From Synechococcus sp. CC9605 (GTDB lineage: Bacteria > Cyanobacteriota > Cyanobacteriia > PCC-6307 > Cyanobiaceae): 64,000 nt of DNA. Positions 1 to 14,092 of the stretch are shown here, in pieces. The stretch covers positions 1,550,001-1,614,000 of the forward strand of contig NC_007516.1 of assembly GCF_000012625.1 (NCBI RefSeq). Direction: 5' to 3'. Each line of letters starts with the position of its first letter. The first letter of the stretch is position 1. The notes beneath the pieces were generated by a model, which searched no databases, was not told where the DNA came from, and saw nothing but the letters and a program-made list of their open reading frames with translations. Made by a program: the position numbers and the translations under genes.

Positions 1-1
1 G

Positions 2-256
2 AGCCATCGAATCAACCTGAAAGATCACTCCTGGGTTCTTGGTTGGATGTACTTCCTCCGCCCAGAACACAAAGCGCCTGAATCCGCCAAAGAACAGGTG
101 GAAGATCAACTGATCGACAAGTTTTCAGATGGATGGCGCAACGGCGATGTGTACGCCACCAAGGTTGTTGAAACCGTCTTCGAGCTGCAGCGCCAGCGCC
201 ACATCAACCGTCGGCTGAGGAACTACCTGGCTGATGACCGTGGGGGGCAGAAATGA
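2..256 (+). CDS. Hypothetical protein, 5' end outside the window
   Basis: The frame is open to the left edge, so the true start lies outside the window; an internal ATG is at 47. The visible part is charged and probably helical, ending in a Gln/Arg-rich stretch. I do not recognise a family. Its stop overlaps the ATG of the next gene (ATGA at 253), which places it in the replication operon of element 1. Confidence 0.6.
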   Translation, partial: SHRINLKDHSWVLGWMYFLRPEHKAPESAKEQVEDQLIDKFSDGWRNGDVYATKVVETVFELQRQRHINRRLRNYLADDRGGQK

Positions 257-852
257 AAGCCTCTGGACGCAACAACCCGTGCCCGATCTGCCAAAGAACG
301 CACGATGGCGATTGTCGATGGAACGACTCTTCGATCCTCTGCCACACCGGCACTGATATGCGCCCTGGCGACACCATCACCATCGCGGGGCAGGAATGGG
401 CATTCATCCATCACAAAGGTGGGTTCAGCGGCATGGCAGCCGTGTTCAAGCCGCATCGGAAGCGTGATTACAGCCGCACCCCCAGCACCGCGCAGGAGCT
501 GCTCTCACGGCAGTCCAAACGGTTCCAGTGGTCATCAGTCCTAAATCAGTTCTTCGCTGCATTCGATGCCGCCTGGAACATCCCTGATCTCTACAGCTGC
601 ACCCCCCAGCAGCTCACCAAGGCGTTCTCCACCATCGACGACGCCCAGACCAAAGCGGCAGCCCTATCCGGTCACTTGCAGGCCATCTGGCGCGATTGCC
701 CTGATCTGAAGCAACTCCACCGCCTCCGCGTTGAGCACTGCCTCAAAACCATCGCGCACATCGCGGAAGACGCCCGCCAGTTCAAACAGAACGACCTGGG
801 CATTCCTTGCCCCGCGGCTGTTCATCAACTGCTCGGGGAGGAGGTGTCATGA
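253..852 (+). CDS. Zinc-finger protein, primase-like N-terminus
   Basis: This 199-aa protein starts with a compact Cys/His cluster at residues 9-31 (CPIC, then H, C and CH) like the zinc-binding domains at the N-terminus of phage and plasmid primases. The rest is helical with no recognised catalytic domain. It lies between an upstream gene (4 bp overlap) and the helicase gene (4 bp overlap, ATGA at 849), so the three are probably translationally coupled. I infer a role in initiating element replication. It could instead be a zinc-finger regulator, because no polymerase motifs are visible. Confidence 0.65.
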   Translation: MKASGRNNPCPICQRTHDGDCRWNDSSILCHTGTDMRPGDTITIAGQEWAFIHHKGGFSGMAAVFKPHRKRDYSRTPSTAQELLSRQSKRFQWSSVLNQFFAAFDAAWNIPDLYSCTPQQLTKAFSTIDDAQTKAAALSGHLQAIWRDCPDLKQLHRLRVEHCLKTIAHIAEDARQFKQNDLGIPCPAAVHQLLGEEVS

Positions 853-2096
853 CATCTGTTCCGCAACTTGAAGATGCCTTTTCCTTGCCCACTGCTAATG
901 GGCATGAAAAACGTCAGGCAAGAAAACAAGCTCTTGCTGAGGCAGTCAATGGCGCAGATGCTCTCGAAACCTTGAAGCTCGGCCTGGAGGTGCTCGAAGA
1001 CATTGACTCCCCCACTGAGCGGTTCATTGCTCTCCAGAACCTCAGAGAACAAACAGGGCTCACTAACGGCAAGGCATTCGATCAAGCCGTTGCAACGCTC
1101 ATCGATGAGCAACGCAACGACCAAGACTGCACGCTCGCTGAACTCCTGCAGCGTCAACACGACGCCACATGGGGGATTGATCAATTCGGCTGCAAGGGCG
1201 CTCTCGTAGGCATTGGTGGAGACAAGGGCGAGGGGAAAACAACCCTCATGTATCAATCCGCCATCGCAGTCGCATCTGGTGCCCCGCTCTTCAATGAACT
1301 CACTGTTCAACGCGGTCCGGCAATCATCGTGCAATGCGATGAATCAGACCTGAACGCCAAGAAGAAATTTCTGGCAATGGGTGCTGACGCTGAACTGCCC
1401 ATTCACTGGATGTGGGGATTCAACCCCGCCATGGTTCCTGAGTTGAAACGCAAGATTCAGAAGACCGGAGCCAAGTTCATCGGCATTGATTCGATCACCA
1501 CCGTTGCAGGTGGCCGTGGCATTAAATCAACCGACCCTGAATACAGCCTGTTCCTCTATCAGCTGAACCACCTGGCGGGTGAACTTGGCGTCGTCATCTT
1601 CCTGCTGATTCACCTCCGTAAGCCTGATTCCGCCAAGGTCCGCACATCTGTCGGCCTGGATGATTTTCTTGGCACCGGGATGCTCACCGCAGCCTGCTCT
1701 GACGTCTTTGGTTACTGGGCTAATAAGGCAGAAGATGCGTTCCCCAATCAGTTCATGCTGCGCTGCCTCGGCAAGCGGAATTGCGAGGCTGGAACCACCT
1801 GGGACCTGCAGGGATCAACGGATGATTTCTCCCTCACCTTTGTTGGTGTTCAGGGCGGTGGAGAGACCCCATCAGAACGGCGCTCAGTTATCGCCAAAGC
1901 CCTCCAGTACCTCCGGCAACGGAAAGGGCAACCGCAGGCCGTAGAGACGATTGCAGCCGGCATTAGTGCCCATGAGAAGACCGTGGCCAAAGAGCTGCGT
2001 GATTACTTCTCCAGCGGCAACGCACTGAACATCCGACGCGTGAAGGGTGAATCAACAACCACCGGCGGTCGCCGGCCTTGGCTCTGGGTGTTCTGA
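849..2096 (+). CDS. RecA-fold replicative helicase (RepA/AAA_25-like)
   Basis: The start is ATG at 849, behind a strong GGGAGGAGG ribosome site and overlapping the upstream stop; an in-frame ATG at 807 lies inside the previous gene. The 415-aa product has a Walker A motif GGDKGEGKT near residue 125 and a Walker B strand FIGIDSIT near residue 210, followed by a long loop and a VIFLLIHLRKP strand. These are typical of hexameric RepA/DnaB-type helicases of plasmids and satellites. The C-terminus (from about residue 335) resembles a small winged-helix domain. With the zinc-finger gene upstream and iterons immediately downstream it forms a replication module. Element 2 has no counterpart. Confidence 0.8.
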   Translation: MTSVPQLEDAFSLPTANGHEKRQARKQALAEAVNGADALETLKLGLEVLEDIDSPTERFIALQNLREQTGLTNGKAFDQAVATLIDEQRNDQDCTLAELLQRQHDATWGIDQFGCKGALVGIGGDKGEGKTTLMYQSAIAVASGAPLFNELTVQRGPAIIVQCDESDLNAKKKFLAMGADAELPIHWMWGFNPAMVPELKRKIQKTGAKFIGIDSITTVAGGRGIKSTDPEYSLFLYQLNHLAGELGVVIFLLIHLRKPDSAKVRTSVGLDDFLGTGMLTAACSDVFGYWANKAEDAFPNQFMLRCLGKRNCEAGTTWDLQGSTDDFSLTFVGVQGGGETPSERRSVIAKALQYLRQRKGQPQAVETIAAGISAHEKTVAKELRDYFSSGNALNIRRVKGESTTTGGRRPWLWVF

Positions 2097-2097
2097 G

Positions 2098-2281
2098 CAG
2101 TTTCGGAATCTCTCGCGTAGGGGGGCTCCAAACTCCAAAACTCACGCCAAATCGGCATAAATCCCAGTCCACCACTGAAATCAGTTTCGGAACATTTGCC
2201 CCGCTCACCACGTTCCTAAACCAGTTTCGGAATGTCAAATGCAATTTCGGAATGTCGAAACGGACTGAATGTTCCTAAACC
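2098..2281 (+). repeat. Iteron cluster, candidate replication origin
   Basis: Four direct copies of CAGTTTCGGAA or a close variant occur at 2098, 2182, 2222 and 2242; the last two extend to TTTCGGAATGTC. Two copies of GTTCCTAAAC at 2212 and 2271 are the same motif inverted with one change. The cluster lies just after the helicase stop in otherwise non-coding DNA. Iterons beside a replication gene are a usual origin layout. The rest of the gap, to about 2455, is pyrimidine-rich and then AT-rich (2400-2450), compatible with a DNA-unwinding region. Confidence 0.55.
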
Positions 2282-2514
2282 TCCAATCTCTCTAATCCCT
2301 CTCTCTGACTACTCTCTCTGTAATTCTCTCTCTTGATAACTGGGGGGTTTTGGAGTTTTTCCGGATACGCACGCGCGACTCCAGTACTGGGGTTTTTAGA
2401 CGCCTTGCCTTATGACCTCTAATAAAATTTGAACAGCGCCGAATTCTTAACAACGCGGCTGCATCAATCGAGCAGAGAAAGGAAACAGAAATCAAACGCA
2501 ATCGCGCCTGGGAA

Positions 2515-2982
2515 ATGCACATCAATGGCGCCCCGCAATATGCGATCGCCGCCGAGCTGGGGATCACGCAGGGCCGGGTGAGCCAATACATCGCCCACGT
2601 CGCCAAGAACCACCCGGTGAACAAGCTCTCCCTGGACGAGCGGATGGCGATCTCTGAAGAGCGCTGGAACCTCAGCGAGCGGGAACTGCGCCAGACCATC
2701 GATAACCAACGCGCCAACGGCCGCACCGTCACGGAGACCATCACCGAGCCCAGCGGGCGGATCACCACCAAGGTCACGCATCAAGAGGGAGTCGACCCTG
2801 CACTGCTGCGGGCGCTCTCCACGCACCACGATCGCCGTGCCCGGCAACTCAACAACCAGATCGGTCCTGACGCCGGCGTGCAAGCGGTGCAAGTCAACGT
2901 CGTGCGCGACTTCCTGCAGCAGAGTGATCAGCAGGGCAAGCTCAGCGCCGATCAGTGGAATCAGCAGGTTTTGGACGTGTAA
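2515..2982 (+). CDS. Small terminase subunit (TerS)-like protein, start altered
   Basis: The product has an N-terminal helix-turn-helix (QYAIAAELGITQGRVSQYI) followed by a long helical region, as in phage small terminases that recognise the packaging site. Its homologue in element 2 (15353) begins with GTG, but the aligned codon here (2455) is GCG. No other in-frame start exists before ATG 2515, so the protein either lacks about 20 N-terminal residues, including the first helix, or starts non-canonically. The region from 2455 is still open and conserved, which suggests recent loss. It precedes the TerL gene at 4230. The HTH alone would also fit a regulator. Confidence 0.65.
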   Translation: MHINGAPQYAIAAELGITQGRVSQYIAHVAKNHPVNKLSLDERMAISEERWNLSERELRQTIDNQRANGRTVTETITEPSGRITTKVTHQEGVDPALLRALSTHHDRRARQLNNQIGPDAGVQAVQVNVVRDFLQQSDQQGKLSADQWNQQVLDV

Positions 2983-3033
2983 TTGCTTTGAAAGCAACCG
3001 GTCAGCTAGTCAGGCACTGGATTTCTGCCCCGC

Positions 3034-3053
3034 TGTGCCAAAGGGTGTGCCAA
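3034..3053. repeat. Tandem TGTGCCAAAG repeat, element 1 type
   Basis: TGTGCCAAAGG is followed directly by a second TGTGCCAA between two convergent genes. The same repeat type lies upstream of the element 1 recombinase (13850), whereas element 2 has GTGTGGTGAG-type repeats at both equivalent positions. I infer a binding site for an element-specific recombination or regulatory protein. Confidence 0.5.
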
Positions 3054-3074
3054 TAGCCCACCACCAGTGGTCGG

Positions 3075-3272
3075 TTACTGCTGCTGTTGAGCCTGTTCCT
3101 GCAGCGCCTTCCTGATGGCATTGCGAACGAACAAGCCGCCGGCCTTGCCCATCGCTTTGATGGCGTCGTGATCGCTGGCATAGAGGCGGACAGTTAATGG
3201 GCTCTTGCCCAGTGGTTCCTGCCCCTCAGGGACGGCGTATTGATGCTGTCGGAGGTGTTCTACTGATCCCAC
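3075..3272 (-). CDS. Ribbon-helix-helix-like small DNA-binding protein
   Basis: The 65-aa protein has a basic beta-strand segment (SPLTVRLYASDHDAIKAM) followed by two helices and a Gln-rich tail, which fits a CopG/Arc-type ribbon-helix-helix fold. Element 2 carries a close homologue at 15971-16168. In both elements the gene is convergent with the TerS gene and sits beside an element-specific tandem repeat, so it may be the protein that binds those repeats. That link is inference. Confidence 0.6.
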   Translation of the reverse strand: MGSVEHLRQHQYAVPEGQEPLGKSPLTVRLYASDHDAIKAMGKAGGLFVRNAIRKALQEQAQQQQ

Positions 3273-3359
3273 GCTCTGACACGTCTACATGCCATTAAGG
3301 CTAACGGTGGCGCAACAGATCACCAGCGTTAGCGTGAAACTCTTGCGAGCAGCTCACGC

Positions 3360-3611
3360 ATGACGGCATTGCCCCTGGATTTGACCAGTGACATGGCGTT
3401 GATTGCGGAGCACCACGAAGAGGGCATCAGGTTGCACCGTGCTGGGGTGTTCACGGATGCGGAATGGGCTGAGCACCAGCGGGTGAGTTATGTGGCGTTG
3501 ATGGTGTTGGGGATGGACGGGATGAAGCAACTGAGCAGGGCATGCCTGCTGGAGGGAGCGCTGCCCCCCGCCTGTGCGTTAGGTCACCACTCAATGCAAC
3601 TTCTCCTGTAA
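3360..3611 (+). CDS. Conserved small satellite protein, unknown
   Basis: The first 50-60 residues (MTALPLDLTSDMALIAEHH) match the element 2 protein at 16255. After about residue 60 the sequence diverges from the homologue and runs into the left copy of a direct repeat (3560-3578), so its C-terminus was probably replaced when the cassette behind it was inserted. It is acidic and helical, with no recognised domain. Confidence 0.6.
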   Translation: MTALPLDLTSDMALIAEHHEEGIRLHRAGVFTDAEWAEHQRVSYVALMVLGMDGMKQLSRACLLEGALPPACALGHHSMQLLL

Positions 3612-3971
3612 GGGTGACTGCAGATGCTTCCCACTAGTGGCTGCTGCTTACCTCAACAACGTCCGTGTGCTCTGTAAGGAGGGTTGCGAGGAAAAATTCA
3701 TCGCAGAGACTGAGGAATGGGTCAATCCGGAGGGCATGTTGGATGCCTATTGGGCAAAGACAGGAGAGCGCAGCTACTGCTTTGTAGGCCTATGGGAAAG
3801 CGAAGAAAGCTTGGTCGCTGCCCGTCCTCAAATGATTGAGCACCTGAACAAGGTCCGTGATTTCTTTGAGGAGCTATCTCCAGAGCTTGGCGTCACCGAT
3901 CCTGTTTCTGGATCAGTGGTGACCCATAAAGGCTGATTTCAAGCTGGAAACGCTGCCCCCCCGCCTGTGCG
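3560..3971. repeat. Direct repeat pair flanking an inserted cargo gene
   Basis: GCTGCCCCCCGCCTGTGCG at 3560-3578 recurs at 3952-3971 with one extra C. The two copies bracket the gene at 3637-3936. Element 2 lacks both the gene and the interval, so the repeats look like scars or substrates of cassette insertion. Confidence 0.55.
3637..3936 (+). CDS. Antibiotic-biosynthesis-monooxygenase-fold (ABM-like) protein
   Basis: The gene starts with GTG at 3637. The 99-aa product begins with a strand (YLNNVRVLCKEGCEEKFI), continues with an FVGLWESEESLVAARPQM segment, and has the alternating strand/helix pattern of dimeric alpha+beta-barrel (ABM) proteins. These are often small monooxygenases or stress-related enzymes. 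No catalytic residue can be assigned. It is absent from element 2 and flanked by a direct repeat, so it is probably cargo. Confidence 0.55.
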   Translation: MAAAYLNNVRVLCKEGCEEKFIAETEEWVNPEGMLDAYWAKTGERSYCFVGLWESEESLVAARPQMIEHLNKVRDFFEELSPELGVTDPVSGSVVTHKG

Positions 3972-4033
3972 GTGACAGTGAAATCCCCCTGCACGGAGAT
4001 GCGCTGCTTGGTCATGGCAGCCAACCTGATCGC

Positions 4034-4237
4034 ATGAACAAAGCCATTGCATTAGCGGCGCTATTACCCGCCGCAGGCCCTGCCTTCGCGGAAACCGCAG
4101 GGAACAAGAAACCAACCTTCAACAACCCCTCCAGGACCATTGCCGACTTCCATGCCGCGTGCTCCCGCCACGCTGAAGAACGCCAAATTGACTCAGCCAG
4201 AATGGATATAGCTGAGTTGTTGCAGTTAATTGGCTGA
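4034..4237 (+). CDS. Small exported protein
   Basis: The 67-aa product starts with a short signal-like sequence (MNKAIALAALLPAAGPAFAE) and continues with a polar region containing one Cys. Its 3' end overlaps the TTG start of TerL by 8 bp. Element 2 keeps only the last 15 or so codons (about 16800-16850), with the CAG at 4223 changed to TAG (16836). No function is apparent. Confidence 0.55.
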   Translation: MNKAIALAALLPAAGPAFAETAGNKKPTFNNPSRTIADFHAACSRHAEERQIDSARMDIAELLQLIG

Positions 4238-5804
4238 TACTTCGCCCCGCACGATTCAACTGAGCCCATGGCAGCGCAAGGTTGCAGGGCTTGTTCAATC
4301 CGTCGATGAGTTGAACACTTTGGTGCTCGCCGGTGGCCGGGGCGGAGGCAAGTCGATCCTGCTGATCTGGTTGATCGGGTTCTTCGCCCTGGTGAGTGGT
4401 GAATCATTCAACGCCGTGCTGATCAGGCGTGATCTGGCGGGTCTTTCGAAGCTGGAGGACCTGCTGTATCAACAGGTCCCGACGTTGATGCCGGGCTCGA
4501 AGTATTTCAAAGCCAAGCGTCAGTGGAGATTGAGCAATGGGGGCACGCTGAGGTTGATCCACATGGACGCAGGGGATGCGTTCAACAAAATTCAGGGTGA
4601 AGATCTCAGCCACATTTTCTGGGATGAGCTGGGGCAGGAAGCCGATCCGCAGGTGGTGCTGAGGGCCAGGTCATCAATGCGGACGACAGACCCGACGGTG
4701 GTGCCGAAGTTCATTGCCACGGCCAACCCATTGGGCCCCGGCAGCTGGTGGATCAGGGATTACGTCGTCACCAAGGCGCTGCCCAATCGGATTTTTAACT
4801 GTGAGTTCTTTGGTGCCCAGCCAGCGGTCTGGATAAAGAGCACCCTCAGGGATAACCCGTATCTCAGTAATCCGGATCAATACGAGCAGGAGCTACGGGC
4901 GAGCTGCTTTGGCGATGAGTCGAAGATCGCGGCGGAGGTGCTGGGTGAATGGGGCCAGGTCACTGCCGGTTTCTTTGGCTCAGCCCTGTCGCTTGATCGC
5001 AACATGTTGCCTGGTGATTTTCAGGTGCCATGGCCGTCGGATTCCGATGGTGTGTTCAGGCATGAGACCAAGGCGAAGTGGTGTTGGGTTGGTGGGGACT
5101 GGGGCACAGCATCGCCTGCCTGCGTCGTGTTGATGTGTCAGATACAAGAGCCGATGACGATCGCTGGAAAGCATTTACCGCGGGGCAGCTGGGTGTGTAT
5201 AGACGAGGAATATGTCTGCAGCATTCAGCCGGATGGTTCTAAGGAGTGGAACCGTGGTGATCGGAGTCTGACTGCACCGATTTTTGTGGAGCGGGTGATG
5301 AAGTTGTACCAGCGCCATGGCTTCCCGCAGGGTGCGATTCCAGCGCGGCGAACGATCATGGATTCAGCGGTAACTGCGCAACTTGGCTTTGGTGGATACA
5401 AGGACCCAGTGACGCTGAGCACTGAATTCAGAAAGTACGGGTGGAATGTGACGGGCAGCCCTAAGAGCAGTCGTGCAGTGGGCTGGCAGCTGATGAAGAG
5501 CTTGTTATGGCAGGCGGGCAGTGATCAGCCTGGATTGTTCATTTCAGAGCGTTGTGAGAGCTTGTGGGCAACGCTGCCTTATTGCATCGCGGATGATAAA
5601 AACCCTGAGGATATGGAGAAGAGTGCGCCTGACCACTCAGCTGATGCAGTGCGGTATGTGCTGACTGCAGCTAATCAGGGGCGGCATAACTTCAGGGGTG
5701 GAACAAAGCCTGGACCGCATCCGTTGATGTGGCCTATGGAAAGGAAAGCGGTGGTTTACATGAACGGGAGAGCAGTTGCAGATGCGAGACGAATGAGCAG
5801 GTGA
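4230..5804 (+). CDS. terL: Terminase large subunit (TerL), intact
   Basis: The gene starts with TTG at 4230 (MADTSPRTIQLSPWQRKV) and encodes 524 aa, a normal TerL length. The ATPase domain has Walker A GGRGGGKS near residues 35-42 and Walker B IFWDE (D132, E133). The RNase H-like nuclease domain has GGDWG as the first acidic site, MDSAVTAQLGFGG, and a late DHSADAVRY motif carrying the last catalytic Asp. TerL powers packaging of DNA into proheads and cuts it. No portal, protease or capsid gene follows, so the packaging partner must come from elsewhere. Element 2 has a damaged relative at 16843-18404. Confidence 0.92.
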   Translation: MADTSPRTIQLSPWQRKVAGLVQSVDELNTLVLAGGRGGGKSILLIWLIGFFALVSGESFNAVLIRRDLAGLSKLEDLLYQQVPTLMPGSKYFKAKRQWRLSNGGTLRLIHMDAGDAFNKIQGEDLSHIFWDELGQEADPQVVLRARSSMRTTDPTVVPKFIATANPLGPGSWWIRDYVVTKALPNRIFNCEFFGAQPAVWIKSTLRDNPYLSNPDQYEQELRASCFGDESKIAAEVLGEWGQVTAGFFGSALSLDRNMLPGDFQVPWPSDSDGVFRHETKAKWCWVGGDWGTASPACVVLMCQIQEPMTIAGKHLPRGSWVCIDEEYVCSIQPDGSKEWNRGDRSLTAPIFVERVMKLYQRHGFPQGAIPARRTIMDSAVTAQLGFGGYKDPVTLSTEFRKYGWNVTGSPKSSRAVGWQLMKSLLWQAGSDQPGLFISERCESLWATLPYCIADDKNPEDMEKSAPDHSADAVRYVLTAANQGRHNFRGGTKPGPHPLMWPMERKAVVYMNGRAVADARRMSR

Positions 5805-5830
5805 TTGCTCAGAAGTCGATGATTTAAGTG

Positions 5831-5869
5831 AATTAAAATTGTGAGGTCTATCTGGGACATTGCAGCCCT
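5831..5869 (+). promoter_or_regulatory. Repeated upstream motif, copy 1
   Basis: AATTAAAATT is followed by GGTCTATCTGGGACATTGCAGCCC. Near-identical copies lie at 9388-9423 and 23101-23139, directly before the homologous genes at 9430 and 23143. The AT-rich half could be a -10 element and the rest a transcribed leader. Here part of the motif is read as the first codons of the next gene. Confidence 0.45.
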
Positions 5870-6068
5870 ACGCGCCAACGACTCTGACCTGTTCAAGCGT
5901 TGGCTTTATGGAGGCATCGAAGACCTTGGAGAACCTGCGGTCACTGAGATGCTGCTGGACTGGCTTGACCGGTTCCTGACGGTGGAAGAGCAGGACAGGC
6001 TGCTGGGTTGGCACCTGGGGGGGGAGCCTCTAAACCCCAGACGTTGCAATGCTTCTGCACCCCTGTGA
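5841..6068 (+). CDS. Small LRANDxDLFKRWL-family protein
   Basis: The gene starts with GTG at 5841 and encodes 75 aa containing ALRANDSDLFKRWL. The same core occurs in proteins at 42711 and 44168 (both on the minus strand), where the N-terminus is MTRDT-IALFL. The N-terminus here is encoded by the repeated leader motif, so it may be a chimera. The family is a small acidic, helical protein restricted to the accessory regions of this window. Function unknown. Confidence 0.5.
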   Translation: MRSIWDIAALRANDSDLFKRWLYGGIEDLGEPAVTEMLLDWLDRFLTVEEQDRLLGWHLGGEPLNPRRCNASAPL

Positions 6069-6110
6069 GCAAGACCACAGCTGCTGGTGAGGCAGGTCGC
6101 CAGGTGAACC
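6026..6110 (+). promoter_or_regulatory. Cargo-cassette leader, copy in element 1
   Basis: The stretch GGGAGCCTCTAAA, then ATTGCA-like, CACCTGTGAGCAA and GTGAGGCAGGTC segments match the two leaders in element 2 (18444-18596 and 21192-21335) in the same order. Each leader precedes a large acidic cargo gene. Confidence 0.45.
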
Positions 6111-6171
6111 GTTGATTCAGCCGATGGTTGGTTCATCGAGAGGAGACGACCCTCCACCGCTTTTCAAAGCA

Positions 6172-7986
6172 ATGCCCCCTAAGACAAATTCAATACTTCA
6201 ATCGATTGAGGATCGCATGAATGCCTCAAGCAAAGATTCCAATAGCAGAAGTAATCAGAGTTCTGCATCTAAGCATGACTACAGCACTGGTTCTAGGCGT
6301 GACTTCATGCTGAATGGTGAAGATGGGGAGTCATATTCGGAGTACAAGCAAAGAGTCTCAAATGTCCGAGAATTTGAAGCTATTCACATCCAGGGCCAAG
6401 TAAATACAGACGAAAACAACACTGAAACCCAGGAGCCAAGCTCATTTGCGTTTAAAACCCCTTCGGCATGGAATGTATTTGAAAACACATTGGTATGCGC
6501 ACTGGGTAGTGCTATGGGTGGATGGGTTTTTAACAGAGTTAAGACTAATTCGCAGATAAGTATTTGGCTTGATGAGGGGCTCGATTTGTATAGCACTAAA
6601 TCGGAAGCGACCGTATCAAATGCTTTAAGCGAAGCAATTGAGGAGTACAGGGAAAATCATGACAGCAATGCAGGTGAAAATGCAGTTAAAAATGGAGTTT
6701 CAACAATTATTGGTGAGACTGTTAAAGGTATATTAAGGCTCGGTGAGGCTGCTGGGACGGCTACAGCTTGCCTTGTTGGAGGAGCCGCCCTTGAGGTTAT
6801 AAACATAACTCCAGATCCGCCAATGATCGATCGGGTTAATTTAAAACTTAGGCAGCTTGGGCAAATAGAAATTAGGGAAACGGTGCATGATCAGCTGGCT
6901 GCCCGCAGAAGCTCAGGCGGTAGCCAAAGCAACAGGTGGGATGGAGGTGTTAATGACAGCACCCCCTCTGGCAGTCGCTCACAAGATTCAGCTGGGCATA
7001 CAACTGGTTCTAGTGGTCATCAAAATGGCAATCAGAACACCGCAAACCCTATTGGGTACGGATACAACACACAGCAAGGTAATACCAATTCAAATCCCGA
7101 CAGCACTCCACCAGGCGGCAGCACTCCGCCAAGTGGTGGAACTCCGCCAAGTGGTGGAACTCCTCCAAGTGGTGGAACTCCGCCAAGTGGTGGAACTCCG
7201 CCATCCGATGATGATGATGGGAATGATTACAACGCCAGGCATGCTGCAGAGTGTGCAAAAAAGAACCAAGACTATGCAGGCTCAACAGACAACGGTTACT
7301 TCTGCACAGTTCGAGAAGATAATCCAAACCCAGAAGATGATGGAACCCAGGGTGGAACTAGTAAGCCTTCTGTTGGTCCCGCACCCGGAGATATAGGCGG
7401 TAGATATTCAGGCCTTATGAATCCAGGTTCTGAAAGAGGCGGTCGTCCTTCTCCTGATGATGACAATGGTGATGGTCCTTTCGACGACAGGAGTTCATCA
7501 GGCGGCCGTGGTGGCAGAGGCTCCTCTGGTCCTGGTTCTGATAGGTCAAATGCAGATGATGACTATGGGTGTGATCCTCTGACTGGTGGTGGTCTTGGTG
7601 GAGGTGGAACTCAGGATGAAGTCGGCTGGAATTTCTACAGGAGGCCACCTAAAAAAGGCGGCGGTGGTCAGTACGGAGATTCTGGTACTGGTTTTGATGA
7701 TCTCTACAAGCCAAATCCAGAAGATGACTACGGCGTAGGTGGTCCTACTGCTCGCCTTTGGAATAGCACTGAAAGTGTTGACGCCTTGGTTGCAGGTCAA
7801 TCTTCAGGAACATACATAGAGGTGCCTCCCGAGCCAGCATTCGCTTCCTTTGGGGCTTCGTTTGACTCATTCACCCCATCCAAGGATGTGTTTGGTGCAG
7901 GGTTTGAGGTGGCATCTGATTTGCAGTCAGCCAATTCGTTCGCTCCTGCCAAAGCTGACTTCACCAATGAGTTGGCAATGGTCTGA
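6172..7986 (+). CDS. Large acidic low-complexity cargo protein with TPPSGG repeats
   Basis: I chose ATG 6172 because it aligns with the starts of the two element 2 relatives after their shared leader; a TTG at 6112 would add 20 residues. The protein is rich in Asp, Gly, Ser and Pro and carries five TPPSGG-type hexapeptide repeats (nt 7110-7205). Two short Gly-rich hydrophobic segments occur near nt 6480-6540 and 6740-6800. The gene is followed by an intrinsic terminator. There is no recognised domain. The pattern (acidic, with Gly-rich membrane-like segments) is shared with 18666 and 21402. Possible roles include a surface or fibre-like structural protein or a secreted effector; neither is proven. 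Confidence 0.65.
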   Translation: MPPKTNSILQSIEDRMNASSKDSNSRSNQSSASKHDYSTGSRRDFMLNGEDGESYSEYKQRVSNVREFEAIHIQGQVNTDENNTETQEPSSFAFKTPSAWNVFENTLVCALGSAMGGWVFNRVKTNSQISIWLDEGLDLYSTKSEATVSNALSEAIEEYRENHDSNAGENAVKNGVSTIIGETVKGILRLGEAAGTATACLVGGAALEVINITPDPPMIDRVNLKLRQLGQIEIRETVHDQLAARRSSGGSQSNRWDGGVNDSTPSGSRSQDSAGHTTGSSGHQNGNQNTANPIGYGYNTQQGNTNSNPDSTPPGGSTPPSGGTPPSGGTPPSGGTPPSGGTPPSDDDDGNDYNARHAAECAKKNQDYAGSTDNGYFCTVREDNPNPEDDGTQGGTSKPSVGPAPGDIGGRYSGLMNPGSERGGRPSPDDDNGDGPFDDRSSSGGRGGRGSSGPGSDRSNADDDYGCDPLTGGGLGGGGTQDEVGWNFYRRPPKKGGGGQYGDSGTGFDDLYKPNPEDDYGVGGPTARLWNSTESVDALVAGQSSGTYIEVPPEPAFASFGASFDSFTPSKDVFGAGFEVASDLQSANSFAPAKADFTNELAMV

Positions 7987-8017
7987 TCCATCCCCCGGCA
8001 ATACCTCATACACACCA

Positions 8018-8041
8018 CCCCGTCAGCAATGGCGGGGTTTT
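8018..8041 (+). terminator. Intrinsic terminator after the acidic cargo gene
   Basis: CCCCG pairs with CGGGG around GTCAGCAATGG-type spacing and is followed by TTTTT. The same terminator recurs at 9338, 21133 and 23052. Confidence 0.8.
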
Positions 8042-8147
8042 TGCAAGGACGTTGCAGCTTTTTTACTGAAATTCAATGCAGTCACATTGTTCCAACTGGC
8101 GATACCGTCAATGCGACGGCACCCTATAAGGACAAGCCACAGTCTCT

Positions 8148-9164
8148 ATGCTCCGCCGCTTCACCATCGGGCTGCTGGCTTCAGCCATCGCCATTGCACC
8201 CCTACCAACCAAGGCAGAGGACGGCACCGCAGAAGACCTTGGTGATGTGATGAGCATCAGCCTCAAGGATGTGGTCAAACCCACCATTGGGTTTCAAGGT
8301 GCACTCCAAGGTGCAGGCACACCAAACCAAGCGGGCATTGGCGGGTTTCTTCCACTGTCTGTTGGAGAGAACAGCATTTGGTTCCTTGATGCCCTGGTCA
8401 ATGCCAGCTTTGCTGATCGTGAGGGCTACAGCAGCATCATCAACACCGACGTTGCTGGTGGAACTGTCTCCACCTCCACTCGACTTGGTTACCGCTGGCT
8501 GAATGGTGATCGCAGCTGGATGTTCGGGCTGAATGGCGGTTATGACAGCCGACCAGTGAAATCAGGTGGAACTGACACTGGTATCAGCGTCACCAATGAG
8601 CGCACAGCCTTCTTTCAGCAGATCGCACTGAATGCAGAAGCGGTCTCAAATAGTTGGACATTCAACGCCTATGGACTGCTGCCTGTTGGTGATGTTGAAC
8701 AGAAGCTCAACAGCTTTTATCAAGGCGGTGCAATGAACACCTATGGATTAGATGTTGGCTATTTCATAACCCCAGCACTCCATGCATCCGCTGGTTATTA
8801 CTACCAACATCGAGAGGAGGAACATATTGATGGTTCTGCAGTACGTGGACGTTTGGCCTATGAGATCAGCGATGGCTTAACAGCTGGCTTAAATGTCTCG
8901 CACGATTTTCAAGAGTCAGATCACTTTGAAACAAGAGTTTCTGCTGACCTAAAAGTACGCTTTGGTGGGGCTAGAACAACAGCAATGCGAAAGAAGGTTC
9001 AACAACTACCTGTAATTAATGCCTTAACATCAACACCAAGCAACCGGGATGTGCGTGTACATGACCTTAACATCTTCGTGTGCATCTTTAACATCTGGAA
9101 ATGCAGAGACGATGTGAAAAAATGTCAAGATAAGTATGGGGCGAAGGATAAACGATGTAGATAG
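8148..9164 (+). CDS. Outer-membrane beta-barrel protein (inverse-autotransporter-like)
   Basis: The 338-aa product has a signal peptide (MLRRFTIGLLASAIAIAPLPTKA) followed by alternating amphipathic strands with aromatic girdle residues (TSTRLGYRWL, SWMFGLNGGYDSR, GLDVGYFITPALHASAGYYY, KVRFGG). This is the pattern of the barrel domain of inverse autotransporters/intimins. The C-terminal 45 residues are basic and contain four Cys. As satellite cargo, a barrel in the host outer membrane could alter phage adsorption or act as a porin; that is inference. It has its own terminator at 9338. Element 2 carries different genes in this slot. Confidence 0.7.
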   Translation: MLRRFTIGLLASAIAIAPLPTKAEDGTAEDLGDVMSISLKDVVKPTIGFQGALQGAGTPNQAGIGGFLPLSVGENSIWFLDALVNASFADREGYSSIINTDVAGGTVSTSTRLGYRWLNGDRSWMFGLNGGYDSRPVKSGGTDTGISVTNERTAFFQQIALNAEAVSNSWTFNAYGLLPVGDVEQKLNSFYQGGAMNTYGLDVGYFITPALHASAGYYYQHREEEHIDGSAVRGRLAYEISDGLTAGLNVSHDFQESDHFETRVSADLKVRFGGARTTAMRKKVQQLPVINALTSTPSNRDVRVHDLNIFVCIFNIWKCRDDVKKCQDKYGAKDKRCR

Positions 9165-9337
9165 ATTAGTAAAAGGGCTGTGCGAAAGGGCTGTGCGCTT
9201 CGACAGACAAGAAACCGGATGAGATAGTGGACTCTAACCTTCACGACGCTCTTGCAATTGCAGGGGCTTTTTATTTCTTCAACCAACACCATAAACCCTT
9301 AAATCAGCCTTTGATACCTGGCACTAAATAAACATCA

Positions 9338-9360
9338 CCCCGTCGCAAGGCGGGGTTTTT
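9338..9360 (+). terminator. Intrinsic terminator
   Basis: The stem CCCCG/CGGGG with a short GTCGCAAGG-type loop is followed by TTTTT. It closes the beta-barrel cassette, about 170 bp after the stop codon. Confidence 0.75.
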
Positions 9361-9387
9361 GCTGAAAAGTCGATTAGTTGTAGCGTC

Positions 9388-9423
9388 TAAAATTAAGGGG
9401 TCAATCAGGGACATTGCAGCCCG
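9388..9423 (+). promoter_or_regulatory. Repeated upstream motif, copy 2
   Basis: TAAAATTAAGGGGTC, then GGGACATTGCAGCCCG, ends 6 bp before the ATG at 9430. It matches copies at 5831 and 23101. No Shine-Dalgarno sequence lies between it and the start codon, so the motif may contribute to initiation as well as transcription. Confidence 0.5.
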
Positions 9424-9429
9424 TAAAAG

Positions 9430-9975
9430 ATGACTCCAACCGAAATCAAAGTGTTGGTTCAAGCCTGTCGATCAGCAGGGATTGATGCCAATACGATCAG
9501 TGCAGAAAACCCGTTTGAGAAGAGCGGTTCCACTGCTGCGATATTGCAAGCGGCGGTGGCATCAATTGACCCAGCGCAGGCAGCTAAATGGCGTGTTGCT
9601 GCCGGTGGTGGGCTGAGTGTTGCGACGCTTGCTGAGCTTGAAGGTGGCGGTGATCTGAGTGCTGCAGCGAAGGCTGATCTGTATGCCCACGATCATCAGT
9701 TCGTGAGTGATCTGCAGAAGCAGCAGGTTGCTGATCAAGCGAAGACAGAGAAGTGGCTGGAGGATCAACTGGCTGCCACGGCGTTGAAGAACAAGATCCG
9801 CGAGACGGGTTCTGAGGCTGCTGCCCGGGAAAAGATGCGGCTGGAGGAGCAGCAGGCTGCAGCACTGCAGCAGTCGCGTGAGGAATCAGCGCGGCATGCA
9901 CGGGAGGTGCAGCAGCGCATTGATCAGAAGCGCATCCAAGACGCCCAGATGGCAGGACGGCTGACCAATGGCTGA
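9430..9975 (+). CDS. Conserved satellite protein with coiled-coil tail
   Basis: The 181-aa protein has a conserved N-terminal globular part (ENPFEKSGSTAAILQAA, AAKWRVAAGGGLS) shared with the element 2 protein at 23143, and a Gln/Glu/Ala-rich predicted coiled coil at the C-terminus. It is the first gene of a block kept in both elements (9430-12648), overlapping the next gene by 8 bp. Its size and coiled coil would fit a scaffold-like or capsid-remodelling role, but no family is recognised. Confidence 0.7.
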   Translation: MTPTEIKVLVQACRSAGIDANTISAENPFEKSGSTAAILQAAVASIDPAQAAKWRVAAGGGLSVATLAELEGGGDLSAAAKADLYAHDHQFVSDLQKQQVADQAKTEKWLEDQLAATALKNKIRETGSEAAAREKMRLEEQQAAALQQSREESARHAREVQQRIDQKRIQDAQMAGRLTNG

Positions 9976-10984
9976 GATCACCACGGGTGAGCAGAAGGCT
10001 TACGAAATCAGTCGGAGCAGGACAAAGAAGCAAGCAGCGAGAGATCGCGGTGTTGCTGATGCAATAGCTGAGGCACCTGTGGGTGCTGTTGAAGCAGCGC
10101 GCCAGAGAGCTCTGGGGGGTACCCAGAAAGTGGGCACCCCTGCACCGCAACTAAAGGCACCGACCACCAGTGTTCGGACGGTGAAGCTGCAGGACGGGAC
10201 GGTGGTCCCCGAGCAGTACTACGACCTGGATGCCGCTGATCAGAAGCGGATGGTGGAGCTGATCAAGCAGCGGGAGGTCAAAAAAGCTGACGACAACGCG
10301 GCGTTGACGGCGGTGAACACGCTGTTGGACTTCAGGTCGCAGGACAACGCCAGGGTGAGGGCGCTGGAGGGTCAGCTCTCCACGCTGCTGGGTGTTGTGG
10401 AAGCGCAGCAACGCCAGATCAGTGGGCTGTCGACTCAGATCGAGGTGGGCAAGTCCGATGCGTTGTTGGAGCAGCAGGCGGGGATCGGGCAGGACATCGC
10501 GAACATCAGCGCCATCCGTGCTGAAGCTGCTGCGGAGATGGCGGAATACAACCGTCAACGAGAGGCTGCTGCAGCTGAGAACCGCGCTGCGTTGGAGGCA
10601 ACGGCCACGGCAGTGGAAGCGTTGCGGGGATCGGTGTCATCCGCCAGCACGATTTATCAAGAGGGGATCGTTGCCAACCAGAACCAACTGGCTGCAGTTG
10701 ATGCAGGCGTACGGAAGGTGAGTGTTCAGCTGCAGGAGCTGGAGGGCAAAACCGACGCGTGGACTGATCCGATCACCAGGGGTGAGGTGACGGCCATGGC
10801 GACTGATCTGGTGGTGCAGCAATGGCGTGATCAGGTGCCGGCGATTGTGGATGCGGTGCTGGTGGAGCTGGCCGATCAATTCCCCACGGGTCTGGGGGGT
10901 CAGCGTGTTGATTCGAGCCGCACGCGGCAGCTGCGGAGTGATGCAGCCAACGCCACCTTCAAAGCGCAGGGGGGCATCGGGTGA
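9968..10984 (+). CDS. Long coiled-coil satellite protein
   Basis: The 338-aa protein has a short N-terminal region with ARQRALGGTQKVGTPAP, a YYDLD segment, then about 180 residues of heptad-rich coiled coil. The C-terminal part resembles that of the split element 2 homologue (23622-24548). It lies in the conserved block and overlaps the next gene by 4 bp (ATGA). The shape suggests a fibrous or scaffolding structural protein; this is inference from composition. Confidence 0.7.
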   Translation: MAEITTGEQKAYEISRSRTKKQAARDRGVADAIAEAPVGAVEAARQRALGGTQKVGTPAPQLKAPTTSVRTVKLQDGTVVPEQYYDLDAADQKRMVELIKQREVKKADDNAALTAVNTLLDFRSQDNARVRALEGQLSTLLGVVEAQQRQISGLSTQIEVGKSDALLEQQAGIGQDIANISAIRAEAAAEMAEYNRQREAAAAENRAALEATATAVEALRGSVSSASTIYQEGIVANQNQLAAVDAGVRKVSVQLQELEGKTDAWTDPITRGEVTAMATDLVVQQWRDQVPAIVDAVLVELADQFPTGLGGQRVDSSRTRQLRSDAANATFKAQGGIG

Positions 10985-11166
10985 TGGCCACCGACATCGA
11001 TGCATTGAGGGAGGAACTGGCGGAGGCCAAGGGCCTGCTGCGGGCGCTGAGCTGGGTCGACTGGAGGATGGATGTGAACCGCGGCATGGTCGATTACGGC
11101 CACCAGCTCACCAAGGTTGAGCGGCTGCAGGTCCAGCTCAACAGGGCCCTGAAGGAGGAGGGCTGA
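10981..11166 (+). CDS. Small helical protein, element 1 only
   Basis: The 61-aa gene overlaps both neighbours (ATGA at 10981; its TGA touches the ATG at 11166), showing tight translational coupling. The protein is helical with Leu heptads (DALREELAEAKGLLRAL). Element 2 has only a 28-bp gap here. No known domain. Confidence 0.6.
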   Translation: MMATDIDALREELAEAKGLLRALSWVDWRMDVNRGMVDYGHQLTKVERLQVQLNRALKEEG

Positions 11167-12203
11167 TGAGCTGGCTGCCGGTTCACGGCTGTGCGTTGCC
11201 GCTGCCGAAGCGGAACCACGCCAAGTACGGCGTCCGCCAGCACGGACCAAAGCCCAGCCAGATGTTCAGAGTGCTGCAGAAGAACCCCTATTTGTTCTGG
11301 ATCTATCGATCAGCACCAATCGATCGCGGCGCTGAAGCGGTGGCTGATTACTTGCTGGCGAAGCTGGAGATCGGCGTGCGGGCCCATGAGCGGCAGCCGA
11401 CGATGACGCTCCTGCGGCAATGCCAAACCCAGATGAGCGGCAGGACTAATTCGAGGGCTGTTTGGGTTGACCTGGTGAAGGCTGCAGAGAAGCAGCTGAA
11501 GGCACAGGAGAAGGCTGAGAAGGAGTCCTGGGCGAAGCGCCGCGCAGCGCTCATTCAGCGCGATCAAGAACGCCGTGCGGGCGTTGGGAATCAAGTGAAA
11601 CAACGGGTGGCTGCGGCTCCCAAGCCACCAGTCATTGCGCTTCACCGTCAACGGTTGGAGCGGACCTTAAAAGCCACTCCTGCCCCTGAACCCATGACGA
11701 TTGCCCCTGCATCAGAAACGAAGCCCAAGACGCATAGCCGCAGAGCCCGTGGTGAATGCGGCGTAAGGCTCGGCAAAAAGATCGATGAGCTGGTTGCTGA
11801 AATCCAACACGAAGCAGCGTGTGAATCGAGTTGCTGCGCTGCCCCTGTTGCCGTGATGGAACCACCTGTTGAGTCGTCGGTGGATCCACCAGCAGAAGCC
11901 AATGGGGCGATGGCTGAGCGGGCGCCCGACGATTCCGCCGCTGGGGGCAGCGGCTTTCTTAATCAGGCGACCGTTTGGGATGTGATGAGTGGCCAGGGGT
12001 CACTGATCACTGATCTGCGTGATTTTCTTGGTCGGCTTGATAGTGAACCGCGGCTGCGGGCCAGCGCCAATCTGCGGACCATGTCGCGGGTGCGGGAACA
12101 CCTGGAGCGGATCCCTGAATCAGCGGCGATGGGCGACCCCGTGGAACTGCGGCTGCAGGACGTGCTGGTGCTGATGAATCAGCTGATGACTCGGATGCGG
12201 TGA
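11166..12203 (+). CDS. Conserved satellite protein, 345 aa, unknown
   Basis: The homologue in element 2 is at 24577 (349 aa). Conserved regions are the N-terminal 90 residues (LPxHGC, HAKYG, GPKPS, LFWIY, GAEAVAD) and the C-terminal ELRLQDVLV segment. The middle is a basic coiled coil (KRRAALIQRDQERRAG) followed by a variable linker. The N-terminus is fairly aromatic and could be a small folded domain. The gene ends shortly before the integrase region. Function unknown; conservation against variable cargo implies a core role for the element. Confidence 0.7.
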   Translation: MSWLPVHGCALPLPKRNHAKYGVRQHGPKPSQMFRVLQKNPYLFWIYRSAPIDRGAEAVADYLLAKLEIGVRAHERQPTMTLLRQCQTQMSGRTNSRAVWVDLVKAAEKQLKAQEKAEKESWAKRRAALIQRDQERRAGVGNQVKQRVAAAPKPPVIALHRQRLERTLKATPAPEPMTIAPASETKPKTHSRRARGECGVRLGKKIDELVAEIQHEAACESSCCAAPVAVMEPPVESSVDPPAEANGAMAERAPDDSAAGGSGFLNQATVWDVMSGQGSLITDLRDFLGRLDSEPRLRASANLRTMSRVREHLERIPESAAMGDPVELRLQDVLVLMNQLMTRMR

Positions 12204-12208
12204 TCAGT

Positions 12209-12358
12209 TCAGTTCAGGATTCGCACGTAGATGGGTTCGTACATGCTCCCATTTCGCTCAATCTGCGCATTCGTCATCAGCGGTGCGGTGAAAACTGCCA
12301 GCGCCAGCAGGGAGATCGAAGCGGGCATCGCCAGTTTCAGCCAGTCGGCTTTAGTCAT
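12209..12358 (-). CDS. Small single-pass membrane protein
   Basis: ATG at 12358 opens a 49-codon frame on the minus strand: a short polar start (MTKADWLKLAMP), a hydrophobic segment (ASISLLALAVFTAPLM) and a polar tail. It occupies the only gap between the 345-aa and 70-aa genes and is absent from element 2. A holin-like or signal-anchored peptide would look like this, but there is no direct support for either. Confidence 0.45.
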   Translation of the reverse strand: MTKADWLKLAMPASISLLALAVFTAPLMTNAQIERNGSMYEPIYVRILN

Positions 12359-12435
12359 TGGTGTCAGGGTTCAACTGACAACACCGTGGCCCAATCCCCG
12401 GGATCGGCGCATCCCCCAGTCGAGCGATTGCGCTG

Positions 12436-12648
12436 ATGGCAGCCAAGCGACGGCGGAAGCAAAGCCAGGGTGAGATTGAAGAGAAGGCATTGGCAATGGG
12501 CCGCTGGAGCGGGCTGAACGAACAGCGCCGCCTGGAGCAGCAGAACCATTCAGAACGAGAGAACTGCGCTGCCCGTCGTCGGACGCGTGAATTTCTCGAA
12601 GGTGGCTGGGGGTCGATTGATTGGATCGACCTTTACGGCCAGAAATGA
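12436..12648 (+). CDS. Conserved small basic protein
   Basis: The 70-aa product (MAAKRRRKQ at the start, GGWGSIDWIDLYGQK at the end) is closely similar to the element 2 protein at 25623. It is highly charged with a conserved Trp-rich C-terminus. Its stop codon abuts the stop of the convergent integrase gene. A nucleic-acid-binding role is plausible from its charge. Confidence 0.65.
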   Translation: MAAKRRRKQSQGEIEEKALAMGRWSGLNEQRRLEQQNHSERENCAARRRTREFLEGGWGSIDWIDLYGQK

Positions 12649-13821
12649 TCAGACGTTGGCCGCGGCGAAGTTGGCGGCCGTCGCATCCGGTTTGAACCGG
12701 GCGTAGCTCTTCAGATGCACCTCGATGGTGTGGCCCATTGCCTCGCTGATCTCTGCAACGGCAAGCCGTGCCGCGTGAGCTTGTTTGGCGTAGCGATGGC
12801 GGAATGAATAGGGGGTGAGCTGCTCACCCTGGTGCTCGGCTTCAGTCTTCAGGGCCATCCACATCGTGCGTCTGCGCAAGTACTGATTCAGCGCCTGGCC
12901 ACCATCACCCTCACGGTTCAACGGCGGCAGTTGTTCGCCCACCTGCAACCGTGCCTGGAGCTTCCAATCAATGGCGGAACCATCGGCATCACGCAGCAGC
13001 AGCGGGTGCAACCGCCGCGGTTCTGTCTTGGCTCCCTTGGTTCCCCCCATCGACTTCTGATAAATCGTCCAGAGTTCAGCCCCGCTTGCCCCGTCCTTAA
13101 TCCGGAGGTGCCGCAACTCCTCAGGCCGCAACCCGTAGACGGCACAAAGCTGAATGGCGAAGCGCCATCGGTCATGTACCTCACCCTTGGGAAGGTTGTC
13201 CAGCAGCTGCAGGATCTGCGCATCGCTGAGGGGATACCCGATGCGCTTTGGCTTCAGGGTTTCTGGGAGCGCCGCAGGGGGGCTGTAAACGGGCTTCAGG
13301 TGTCCGCGTTGCACCGCCCAATTCAGGAAGCCATAGAGCTTCTGACGGCTCGTCTGGCGCATCCGTGAGCCCTGTTCCCATTGGGCCAGGCATTGCATCG
13401 CCAACGCTTCACCGTCCACCGGTGGTTTTTCTCTGAATGCTTTGGCGCAATTGCGCAGCACCGGCAGGTAATGGAACTTCCAGGTGTTGTCGCCAGCGTT
13501 AGGAACGAACTCCCGATATTTATCAATCAGCTGGGTGAAATTCAGGGTGTGGTGGCTACTGCTCGTATTTGTAGACGTGGCCGCAGCGGCAAGGCTGATC
13601 TGACCACCGTTCCACCGCTTAAACAGCTGCTGGATATACGGCAGGGCTTGTGTCGCGCCCCGCTCTGACCAGTCGTAATTCAGCGAGAGGGTGCCATGCC
13701 CAGGAACATTGAGGCGCATCCGCCCGCGGTTGTTGCGGACATACCAACCATCGCCGCAGGTGATTGCGACCTGCCGGCGAAAGGGCTTGATCCATGCGTC
13801 TGTCTCAGAAACGCGAGGCAT
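12649..13821 (-). CDS. int: Tyrosine recombinase (integrase) of element 1
   Basis: The 390-aa protein has the phage-integrase layout: an N-terminal arm-binding/SAM-like part and a C-terminal catalytic domain. Visible motifs are LRPEELRHLRIKDG (first Arg), PYSFRHRYAK (His-x-x-Arg box) and EAMGHTIEVHLKSYARF (Gly-His and the nucleophilic Tyr). The gene reads away from the right att site 155 bp behind its start and probably inserts the element into the 3' half of tRNA-Pro. The tandem TGTGCCAAAG repeat lies just upstream of its start. The element 2 integrase (26311) is a close homologue. Confidence 0.93.
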   Translation of the reverse strand: MPRVSETDAWIKPFRRQVAITCGDGWYVRNNRGRMRLNVPGHGTLSLNYDWSERGATQALPYIQQLFKRWNGGQISLAAAATSTNTSSSHHTLNFTQLIDKYREFVPNAGDNTWKFHYLPVLRNCAKAFREKPPVDGEALAMQCLAQWEQGSRMRQTSRQKLYGFLNWAVQRGHLKPVYSPPAALPETLKPKRIGYPLSDAQILQLLDNLPKGEVHDRWRFAIQLCAVYGLRPEELRHLRIKDGASGAELWTIYQKSMGGTKGAKTEPRRLHPLLLRDADGSAIDWKLQARLQVGEQLPPLNREGDGGQALNQYLRRRTMWMALKTEAEHQGEQLTPYSFRHRYAKQAHAARLAVAEISEAMGHTIEVHLKSYARFKPDATAANFAAANV

Positions 13822-13849
13822 CGAGGGGGAGGCATATTGCTACCCCCAA

Positions 13850-13869: not shown

Positions 13870-13975
13870 ACCGTCAAGCGCCTGCTGACACCAGCTGACA
13901 CCAGATCACGCAGAACTGCTGCTAGAATTGAGTCGCTGATTGGAGAAACCCAGTCCAGCACTAGAGAGCCATACT

Positions 13976-14077: not shown

Positions 14078-14092
14078 ATTGCTCGCGCGTGC

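Follow-up and report, generated by a model that had tools for sequence, protein, structure and literature searches.

The 64,000-nucleotide stretch of Synechococcus sp. CC9605 DNA analysed here (the window; G000:C1:1550001-1614000) comes from the 2.51-Mb genome of a marine Synechococcus and carries two tandem elements integrated at a gene for tRNA-Pro(TGG). The first of these, element 1, is a real element under selection that encodes a large terminase subunit (TerL) and a putative small subunit (TerS) with no detectable head gene. We consider it fairly probable that it is a phage satellite that inserts at tRNA-Pro in marine Synechococcus, which would use a packaging motor of its own to fill the procapsids of a helper phage. 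The tRNA gene lies to the left of the window (L026:12406-12480), and 41 bases of its 3' end are repeated exactly at window positions -1561 (within the tRNA gene), 13978, 27651 and 29337. These direct repeats delimit element 1 at -1561 to 13977 (15.5 kb, with 1-13977 inside the window and the left end in L026) and element 2 at 13978-27650 (13.7 kb), both read on the plus strand, as are the AlpA-like, replication, terminase and B1-B4 genes of the window and the two cargo genes of element 1 described below. One copy of the attachment (att) core separates the elements (13978-14018, an exact match), another lies to the right of element 2 (27651-27691), and a further copy (29337-29377) closes a 1.7-kb remnant. 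The tRNA is likewise tRNA-Pro(TGG) in a second genome, G024.

Both elements have an AlpA-like gene at the left end and a minus-strand tyrosine integrase at the right. In element 1 these are L026:13003-13314, recognised from homologues, and 12649-13821 (PF00589 4.9e-8; phrog_1 1.3e-22); in element 2 they are an AlpA/excisionase-like regulator at 14571-14867, named from homologues and a match to TIGR01764 (5.9e-4) below that model's cut-off, and 26311-27483, which is 79-80% identical to the element 1 integrase. Replication genes follow the left end of element 1: a zinc-finger, primase-like protein (253-852), with homologues in L027 and L123 and no NCBIfam match, and an AAA_25/RepA-like helicase (849-2096; PF13481 1.8e-17, phrog_239 2.9e-11). 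An AlpA-like regulator, an integrase and primase/helicase genes are thus all present, the first by a weak match and the primase by its CPIC..C pattern and position only. By gene content the elements agree with satellites in general, having an integrase with att sites, replication genes, a packaging gene and no complete set of virion genes.

The TerL of element 1 (4230-5804, 524 amino acids, TTG start) matches the PHROGs family 'terminase large subunit' (phrog_2, 3.2e-21), with further matches to PF03237 (2.1e-4, just under the cut-off) and TIGR01547 (1.5e-10, well under its cut-off); against the PDB its profile found nothing but an ATP-binding cassette (ABC) transporter P-loop. Five homologues at 40-85% identity share without exception the Walker A motif (GGRGGGKS), the two acidic residues of Walker B and the aspartates in DWGT, MDSA and DHSADA, and the ATPase and nuclease motifs are therefore intact. 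An earlier note on this DNA had placed a terminase pair at 2455-5804 and had credited both long elements with one. TerL holds by family matches and motifs; for the small subunit we rely on inference, and the start has to be moved, given that position 2455 reads GCG here and is a GTG start in relatives. Homology extends to about 2455, but no ATG, GTG or TTG lies upstream of 2515, where the frame with a conventional start codon begins (2515-2982, 155 amino acids). That its product is TerS is suggested by a helix-turn-helix (HTH), the conserved block VDPALLRALSTHHDRRARQLNNQL, its position, and the overlap of the TerS stop with the TerL start in four distant relatives (L035, L133, L135 and L139, 20-26% identical). 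Compared with the PDB, the TerS profile matched HTH regulators and KorA/HTH domains only. In element 2 the TerS candidate is intact (15353-15880), whereas TerL (about 16843-18404) is one base short just after Walker A, which itself carries a G-to-D change (GGRGDGKS); outside the lesion it is 87% identical to the TerL of element 1. The claim of a pair in both elements is therefore sustained for element 1 and fails for the TerL of element 2, which, as a guess, may rely on that of its neighbour. Separately, when the region preceding terS was aligned in four elements, the only conserved part was some 60 bases next to the start (window about 2410-2470), a candidate promoter or packaging site.

Selection on these genes was assessed from ratios of non-synonymous to synonymous substitution (dN/dS, Nei-Gojobori with bootstrap; several deep pairs were saturated in dS and yield no point value). 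The ratio is 0.06-0.14 for TerL, even with the broken frame of element 2 included, 0.15-0.21 for TerS, 0.13-0.17 for the integrase and 0.15-0.23 for a 338-residue protein encoded at 8148-9164. In a conserved block of four genes to the left of the integrase (B1 to B4, 9430-12648) all values are below 0.5, at 0.14-0.37 for B1, 0.29-0.49 for B2, 0.26 for B3 and 0.21 for B4. The purifying selection on TerL speaks against the elements being decaying prophages.

The absence of any recognisable portal, capsid or tail gene, as reported in the earlier note, was borne out by our searches. Scans of the main proteins of the window elements with Pfam and PHROGs gave no capsid, portal or tail gene, the matches being to helicase, terminase and integrase families and to nothing structural. 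Hidden Markov models (HMMs) of cyanosiphophage capsids and portals found no match in window 1-30000 or in the fetched cyanobacterial loci searched; as a control, the same HMMs do match the capsids and portals of diverged phages and the capsids of capsid-carrying satellites. A wider scan covered 88 selected proteins from 26 loci, namely 74 of the 137 listed, chosen by eye without likely host genes and short peptides, plus 14 others; it left out all proteins of L123 and L136, and two tape measures were scanned apart. Among the families listed, which comprise 25 of the 29 PHROGs and 25 of the 28 Pfam families matched, there was no capsid or portal. Fragments of MuF-type head proteins appeared in two of the 88, and others matched HNH, TPR, pentapeptide, Nif11 and similar families. 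Neither a PF04860 portal nor a PF05065 capsid was found in the host genome; each of these families was found in 4 of 14 control genomes. A search for a capsid or portal like that of phage KBS-S-2A in G028 and 23 of the 28 TerL-bearing genomes (24 in all, 17 of them with a completeness of 90% or more) found neither; the capsid query recovered MED4-117, P-HS2 and L197 as a positive control, and the portal query had no control by that tool. Capsids of other families could escape these searches. The Sid, Psu and delta proteins of P4-like satellites gave no match in the general Pfam and PHROGs scans, which included no search by name.

The arrangement is not peculiar to this genome. The TerL profile matched 28 of 400 family genomes (22 of the 251 good ones) and B1 matched 14 of 400, with many partial matches in both cases. 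In the fetched Synechococcus-family loci there are 21 TerL frames of at least 450 amino acids, counting the broken 476-residue frame of element 2; some genomes contribute more than one, and genes may be missed where a locus was cut at 20 kb. A TerS of at least 150 amino acids lies on the same strand no more than 5 kb upstream of 16 of these frames, or of 15 of the 20 once element 2 is set aside. The Walker A pattern is matched in 16 of the 21 (not in L132, L137, L138, L140 and element 2), and the loci contain an integrase in ten cases, B1 in six (as an 86-residue piece in L027) and a tape measure in two.

It is these two tape measures that bear on the nature of the helper. In genome G009, locus L028 has a TerL 68-70% identical to that of element 1 and, behind B4, an 802-residue tape measure (PF10145 6.4e-28, phrog_991 4.9e-52, TIGR01760 6.2e-25) that is 59-60% identical over about 270 amino acids to those of the Prochlorococcus phages MED4-117, MED4-184 and P-HS2. 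Its relatives occur in 437 IMG/VR stretches, and among the 400 family genomes it matched three, G009, G250 and G212. In G250, locus L131 has TerS, TerL and an 873-residue tape measure from another family (PF20155 7.5e-23), whose C-terminal half resembles that of KBS-S-2A (28% identity over 44% of the length, E 4e-14). The two satellite tape measures, which may be compared in length with those of MED4-117 (776 amino acids) and KBS-S-2A (938 amino acids), are alike at their C-terminal ends, as are the ends of some marine phage tape measures, and related genes of 57-63 codons lie 3' of both. These likenesses make lytic cyanosiphophages the probable helpers of the two tape-measure-bearing elements, with the stronger case in G009. 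No tape measure is present in elements 1 and 2, and to assume a cyanosiphophage helper for them is an extrapolation. Contig C45 of G212 matches the tape measure at 10.7 kb and TerL2, an unrelated terminase considered below, at 43.5 kb; possibly this is a real prophage.

The same TerL family is also carried by environmental contigs in IMG/VR (hhalign probability 100, E 2.4e-71), together with another type of integrase; a scan with the window TerL alone had found no relative there. Of these integrases, that of L053 was checked against PHROGs; the remaining names come from inspection by eye or from similarity to the query. L053 has an integrase, a TerS-like gene without a match, TerL and a tape measure (phrog_24 8.8e-36), and L051 has an integrase, a tape measure (phrog_28 1.8e-9), TerS and TerL. 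An integrase, a primase, TerS, TerL and a neck protein occur together in L041 and, with a tape measure added, in L301, and L306 has an integrase, a TerS by position, TerL, a scaffold-like gene without a match and an ordinary capsid protein. Across 108 loci with TerL relatives, a capsid without a portal was found in 12, both in three, a portal without a capsid in eight (one with a neck match), a tape measure in eight (two with a neck, none with a capsid or portal), a neck alone in six and none of these in 71. For the 19 loci that bear an integrase the corresponding figures are three with a capsid, two with a neck, two with a tape measure, one with tape measure and neck, 11 with none, and no portal. 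The relatives counted here were found with a small number of query proteins drawn from the same loci, so that some matches are self-matches, and since environmental contigs are often fragments the absences among them are weak. In the TerL tree close neighbours differ in their module, L039 (capsid) standing beside L050 (neck) and L051 (tape measure) beside L044 (capsid). The 12 loci with a capsid near TerL and no portal detected are L039, L043, L044, L047, L052, L292, L294, L295, L296, L298, L305 and L306, of which L039, L044 and L306 have an integrase; it is possible that these are capsid-only satellites distinct from the capsid-forming phage-inducible chromosomal islands (cf-PICIs).

Taken together, we read these elements as satellites with a motor of their own and at most a small virion module, the remainder coming from the helper. 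The process would start when a helper phage infects the cell, a lytic cyanosiphophage being the likeliest helper; the integrase and the AlpA-like gene would then excise the element, and its primase-like protein and helicase would replicate it. Its own TerS would select element DNA for packaging and its own TerL would dock on the portal of a helper procapsid and fill it, with head, portal, connector and tail genes supplied by the helper and, in the two sister elements, a tail tape measure added by the satellite. The proposal that an element combines its own packaging specificity with the procapsid of a helper remains the best reading, given the purifying selection on TerL, the lack of PF04860 and PF05065 in the host, the TerS found upstream in 15 of 20 cases and the lack of a detected capsid or portal in those loci, and it is weakened by the damage in element 2. 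A more general version, in which modular satellites of this type are widespread in cyanobacteria and other bacteria, is tentative, and we would put it somewhat short of an even chance. Such satellites would share a core of integrase, replication gene, TerS and a TerL of one family, and would carry at most one small virion module open to exchange, be it a tape measure (alone or together with a neck), a neck, a capsid or B1-B4; the portal would regularly be absent, the motor would act on a foreign portal, and B1-B4 would be a new module for remodelling the helper that is used even with an unrelated TerL.

A number of observations weigh against our interpretation. The TerS candidate matches no TerS family in Pfam, PHROGs or NCBIfam, and comparison of its profile with the TerS of the environmental elements gave weak similarity over 30 HTH columns only (E 0.015). 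The TerL of element 2 is broken, broken or partial copies of TerL are also present in G011, G014, G016 and G309 and as one copy in G329, and decay of these elements is therefore also going on. In IMG/VR, where packaged elements might be expected, pattern-based scans found no relative of the window TerS, B1 or B3, and in the 80 loci retained from the 437 tape-measure stretches none of the queried satellite genes has a relative. The TerL tree splits the cyanobacterial rows into two groups, and L037, with both capsid and portal, falls inside the larger one; the TerL family is therefore not exclusive to satellites. The cyanosiphophage link rests on just two of the 20 intact TerL loci, and not on elements 1 and 2. 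The two are described as loci, not as elements with mapped ends, and in that of G250 a serine recombinase stands in place of the tyrosine integrase. Among the phages listed, the lowest E value for the G250 tape measure belongs to Burkholderia phage BcepNazgul (3e-17), one of several phages other than KBS-S-2A matched by the N-terminal domain.

Some of these points would be expected if the elements were degraded prophages, that is, siphophage leftovers kept by chance after loss of head and tail genes. The broken TerL of element 2, the partial TerL copies in other genomes and the C-terminus of a MuF-type head protein left in the G250 locus are all in line with this. However, leftovers kept by chance do not explain the strong purifying selection on TerL, TerS, the integrase and the block, nor a layout repeated in several genomes without a detected capsid or portal. 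The presence of B1-B4 with an unrelated TerL likewise indicates module exchange and not decay, and the tape measures are drawn from several different families, so that we regard degraded prophages as an unlikely explanation. Elsewhere in the same genome, L033 and L034 (G000:C1:520000-550000) are probably decayed elements, with a helicase, an AlpA-like gene, a fragment of B1 and additional fragments of TerL.

Satellites and islands often carry genes that interfere with phages, and a further reading is that TerL and TerS are decoys which spoil the packaging of an infecting phage, the element itself remaining unpackaged. A PD-Lambda-1-like defence gene does lie between TerL and TerS in the G250 locus (L131:10287-11885; PADLOC 2.1e-115). 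A decoy would have no need of the ATPase and nuclease catalytic motifs which are kept here, and the element has the marks of mobility (integrase, att sites and genes for replication), making an anti-phage role of this type quite improbable.

The earlier note had also suggested that the block at 9430-12648 might hide divergent structural or remodelling proteins, and the two halves of this suggestion fare differently. The block comprises B1 (9430-9975), B2 (9968-10984, coiled-coil-like by eye), B3 (11166-12203) and B4 (12436-12648, 70 amino acids), all with homologues in other loci and none with a family match in Pfam or PHROGs. Element 2 repeats it, by homologues, with B1 at 23143-23622, B2 in two frames (23622-24197 and 24210-24548), B3 at 24577-25626 and B4 at 25623-25838, where the block ends. 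AlphaFold predicts B1 as all helix with a long C-terminal helical part (predicted local distance difference test, pLDDT, 82), and Foldseek found no match for it in the PDB (best E 0.59) or among viral models (best E 1.6); B3 is also predicted as all helix, with low confidence (pLDDT 59). A new type of shell or portal, very small and entirely helical, encoded by the block would fit its conservation, its selection and its lack of a family match, but is very improbable. Known capsids and portals do not have the helical folds predicted for B1 and, with low confidence, B3, and Foldseek found no counterpart of B1. The B3-like frame has a length of just 104-172 amino acids in L124, L134, L135 and L252 and is split in L251, L253 and L254, and the capsid protein of L306, a capsid-carrying relative within this TerL family, is an ordinary one. 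A capsid or portal in the block is thus not borne out, and a remodelling role for its proteins is possible.

The block, a candidate module for remodelling helper procapsids, recurs in sister elements, including around an unrelated terminase. In the window genome, a third locus (L251, G000:C1:435000-454900) holds this terminase, TerL2, a TerL of 414 amino acids, in the order B1, B2, B3, TerL2, B4, with the B4 homologue directly 3' of TerL2 and a serine-recombinase-like gene nearby; the order in G028 (L254) is B1, B3, TerL2. Since the block is also found around TerL2, which matched 20 of 330 genomes (many of them as fragments), it is not tied to one terminase. To our knowledge, B1-B4 are not known in the phage-inducible chromosomal island-like elements (PLEs) of Vibrio cholerae. 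The idea of B1 as a mimic of the phage scaffold was kept as an idea but dropped as evidence: an NPF or NPW motif is present in 8 of 8 B1-type proteins of a first set and the C-terminal helix of the cyanosiphophage scaffold also carries NPF (NPFxxxSFNLTEQ), but only 2 of 5 proteins of a further set have the motif, and a comparison of profiles aligned 18 columns with P 0.17. The B1-like protein of G250 reads NPFANGGNLTDQ; it was assigned to B1 by eye only and was not recovered by an iterated B1 search.

Known satellites offer partial parallels. Capsid-forming PICIs carry an integrase and replication genes. They encode both TerS and TerL, as does element 1, and differ in having their own capsid, protease, portal and connectors, so that tails alone are borrowed (PMC10690885), whereas no capsid or portal was detected in the window elements. 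MulchRoom and MiniFlayer of Streptomyces also encode TerS and TerL, but with portal, capsid, scaffold and adapter genes and no known primase (PMC10690885). Classical PICIs, the Staphylococcus aureus pathogenicity islands (SaPIs) and P4-like satellites resemble our elements in their size of about 10-15 kb, integrase, AlpA-like regulator, primase/helicase and att sites, and some PICIs have TerS (PMC10690885, PMC11364771 and, in part, general knowledge); they are packaged by the TerL of the helper (PMC10690885, again partly general knowledge), in contrast to element 1, where TerS is accompanied by an intact TerL (4230-5804) of the element itself. The tycheposons of Prochlorococcus and the virion-encapsidated integrative mobile elements (VEIMEs) are marine, like the window elements. 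Tycheposons are bordered by tRNA genes and carry a tyrosine recombinase and cargo (PMC10872708, PMC10803314, PMC11389934, PMC10187409), and the tRNA border and tyrosine recombinase by which they are defined (PMC10872708) are both found in the window elements.

The closest parallel for the sister elements is with PLEs, satellites of a lytic phage in which a satellite tape measure replaces that of the helper in chimeric tails, and where its deletion cuts transduction by 96-99.9% (PMC12987554). Tape measures in satellites have been known since 2026 from that work, whose Extended Data Figure 10 legend describes putative tmp genes both for PLE-like elements and for cf-PICIs. Of the tape measure and tail chaperone that mark PLEs, the G009 and G250 loci (L028 and L131) carry the former, which elements 1 and 2 lack; PLEs further differ in their helper, ICP1, and the available part of the paper mentions no TerL for them (PMC12987554). 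Most known satellites either use a small subunit to redirect the motor of the helper or encode the whole head themselves (PMC10690885; in part general knowledge). The expectation that they carry either TerS only or a full capsid set is, however, too narrow, both for PLEs (PMC12987554) and for the relatives described here, which combine TerS and TerL with a tape measure, a neck, or a capsid without a detected portal. A satellite with TerS and TerL but without a head gene was not found in the literature searched, a search that most subscription papers, including the tycheposon paper, fell outside. If our interpretation is true, then terminases can dock routinely on foreign portals, and these elements would provide a clean system for the specificity between motor and portal. 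The relatives with tape measures would tie the chimeric tail strategy of PLEs to unrelated hosts, and suggest phages of the P-HS2/MED4-117 type and, less surely, of the KBS-S-2A type as helpers in Synechococcus.

The remaining genes of the elements appear to be cargo. Six window cargo proteins gave no match in PADLOC. In element 1, a low-complexity protein of 624 amino acids (6112-7986) and the 338-residue protein at 8148-9164 have no family match in Pfam, PHROGs or PADLOC. The latter has a signal peptide, is beta-barrel-like by eye and recurs in loci bearing TerL or B1 (L134, L135, L136, L139, L255 and L259); it is possibly a surface protein that affects phage entry. Two long acidic low-complexity proteins of element 2 (18570-19967 and 21318-23003), without a PHROGs match, share a recurring N-terminal stretch with a third at L125:17888-19483. 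Runs of genes for Nif11-leader, double-glycine peptides, which we take to resemble prochlorosin precursors, lie in or beside loci bearing a terminase or B1 (L123:13719-15737, L124:10948-14283, L125:12507-17433, L135:6247-6519 and L252); one scanned protein matched the Nif11 family PF07862 at 6e-16 and the others were recognised by eye. The elements may therefore help to spread prochlorosin-like gene families in the ocean.

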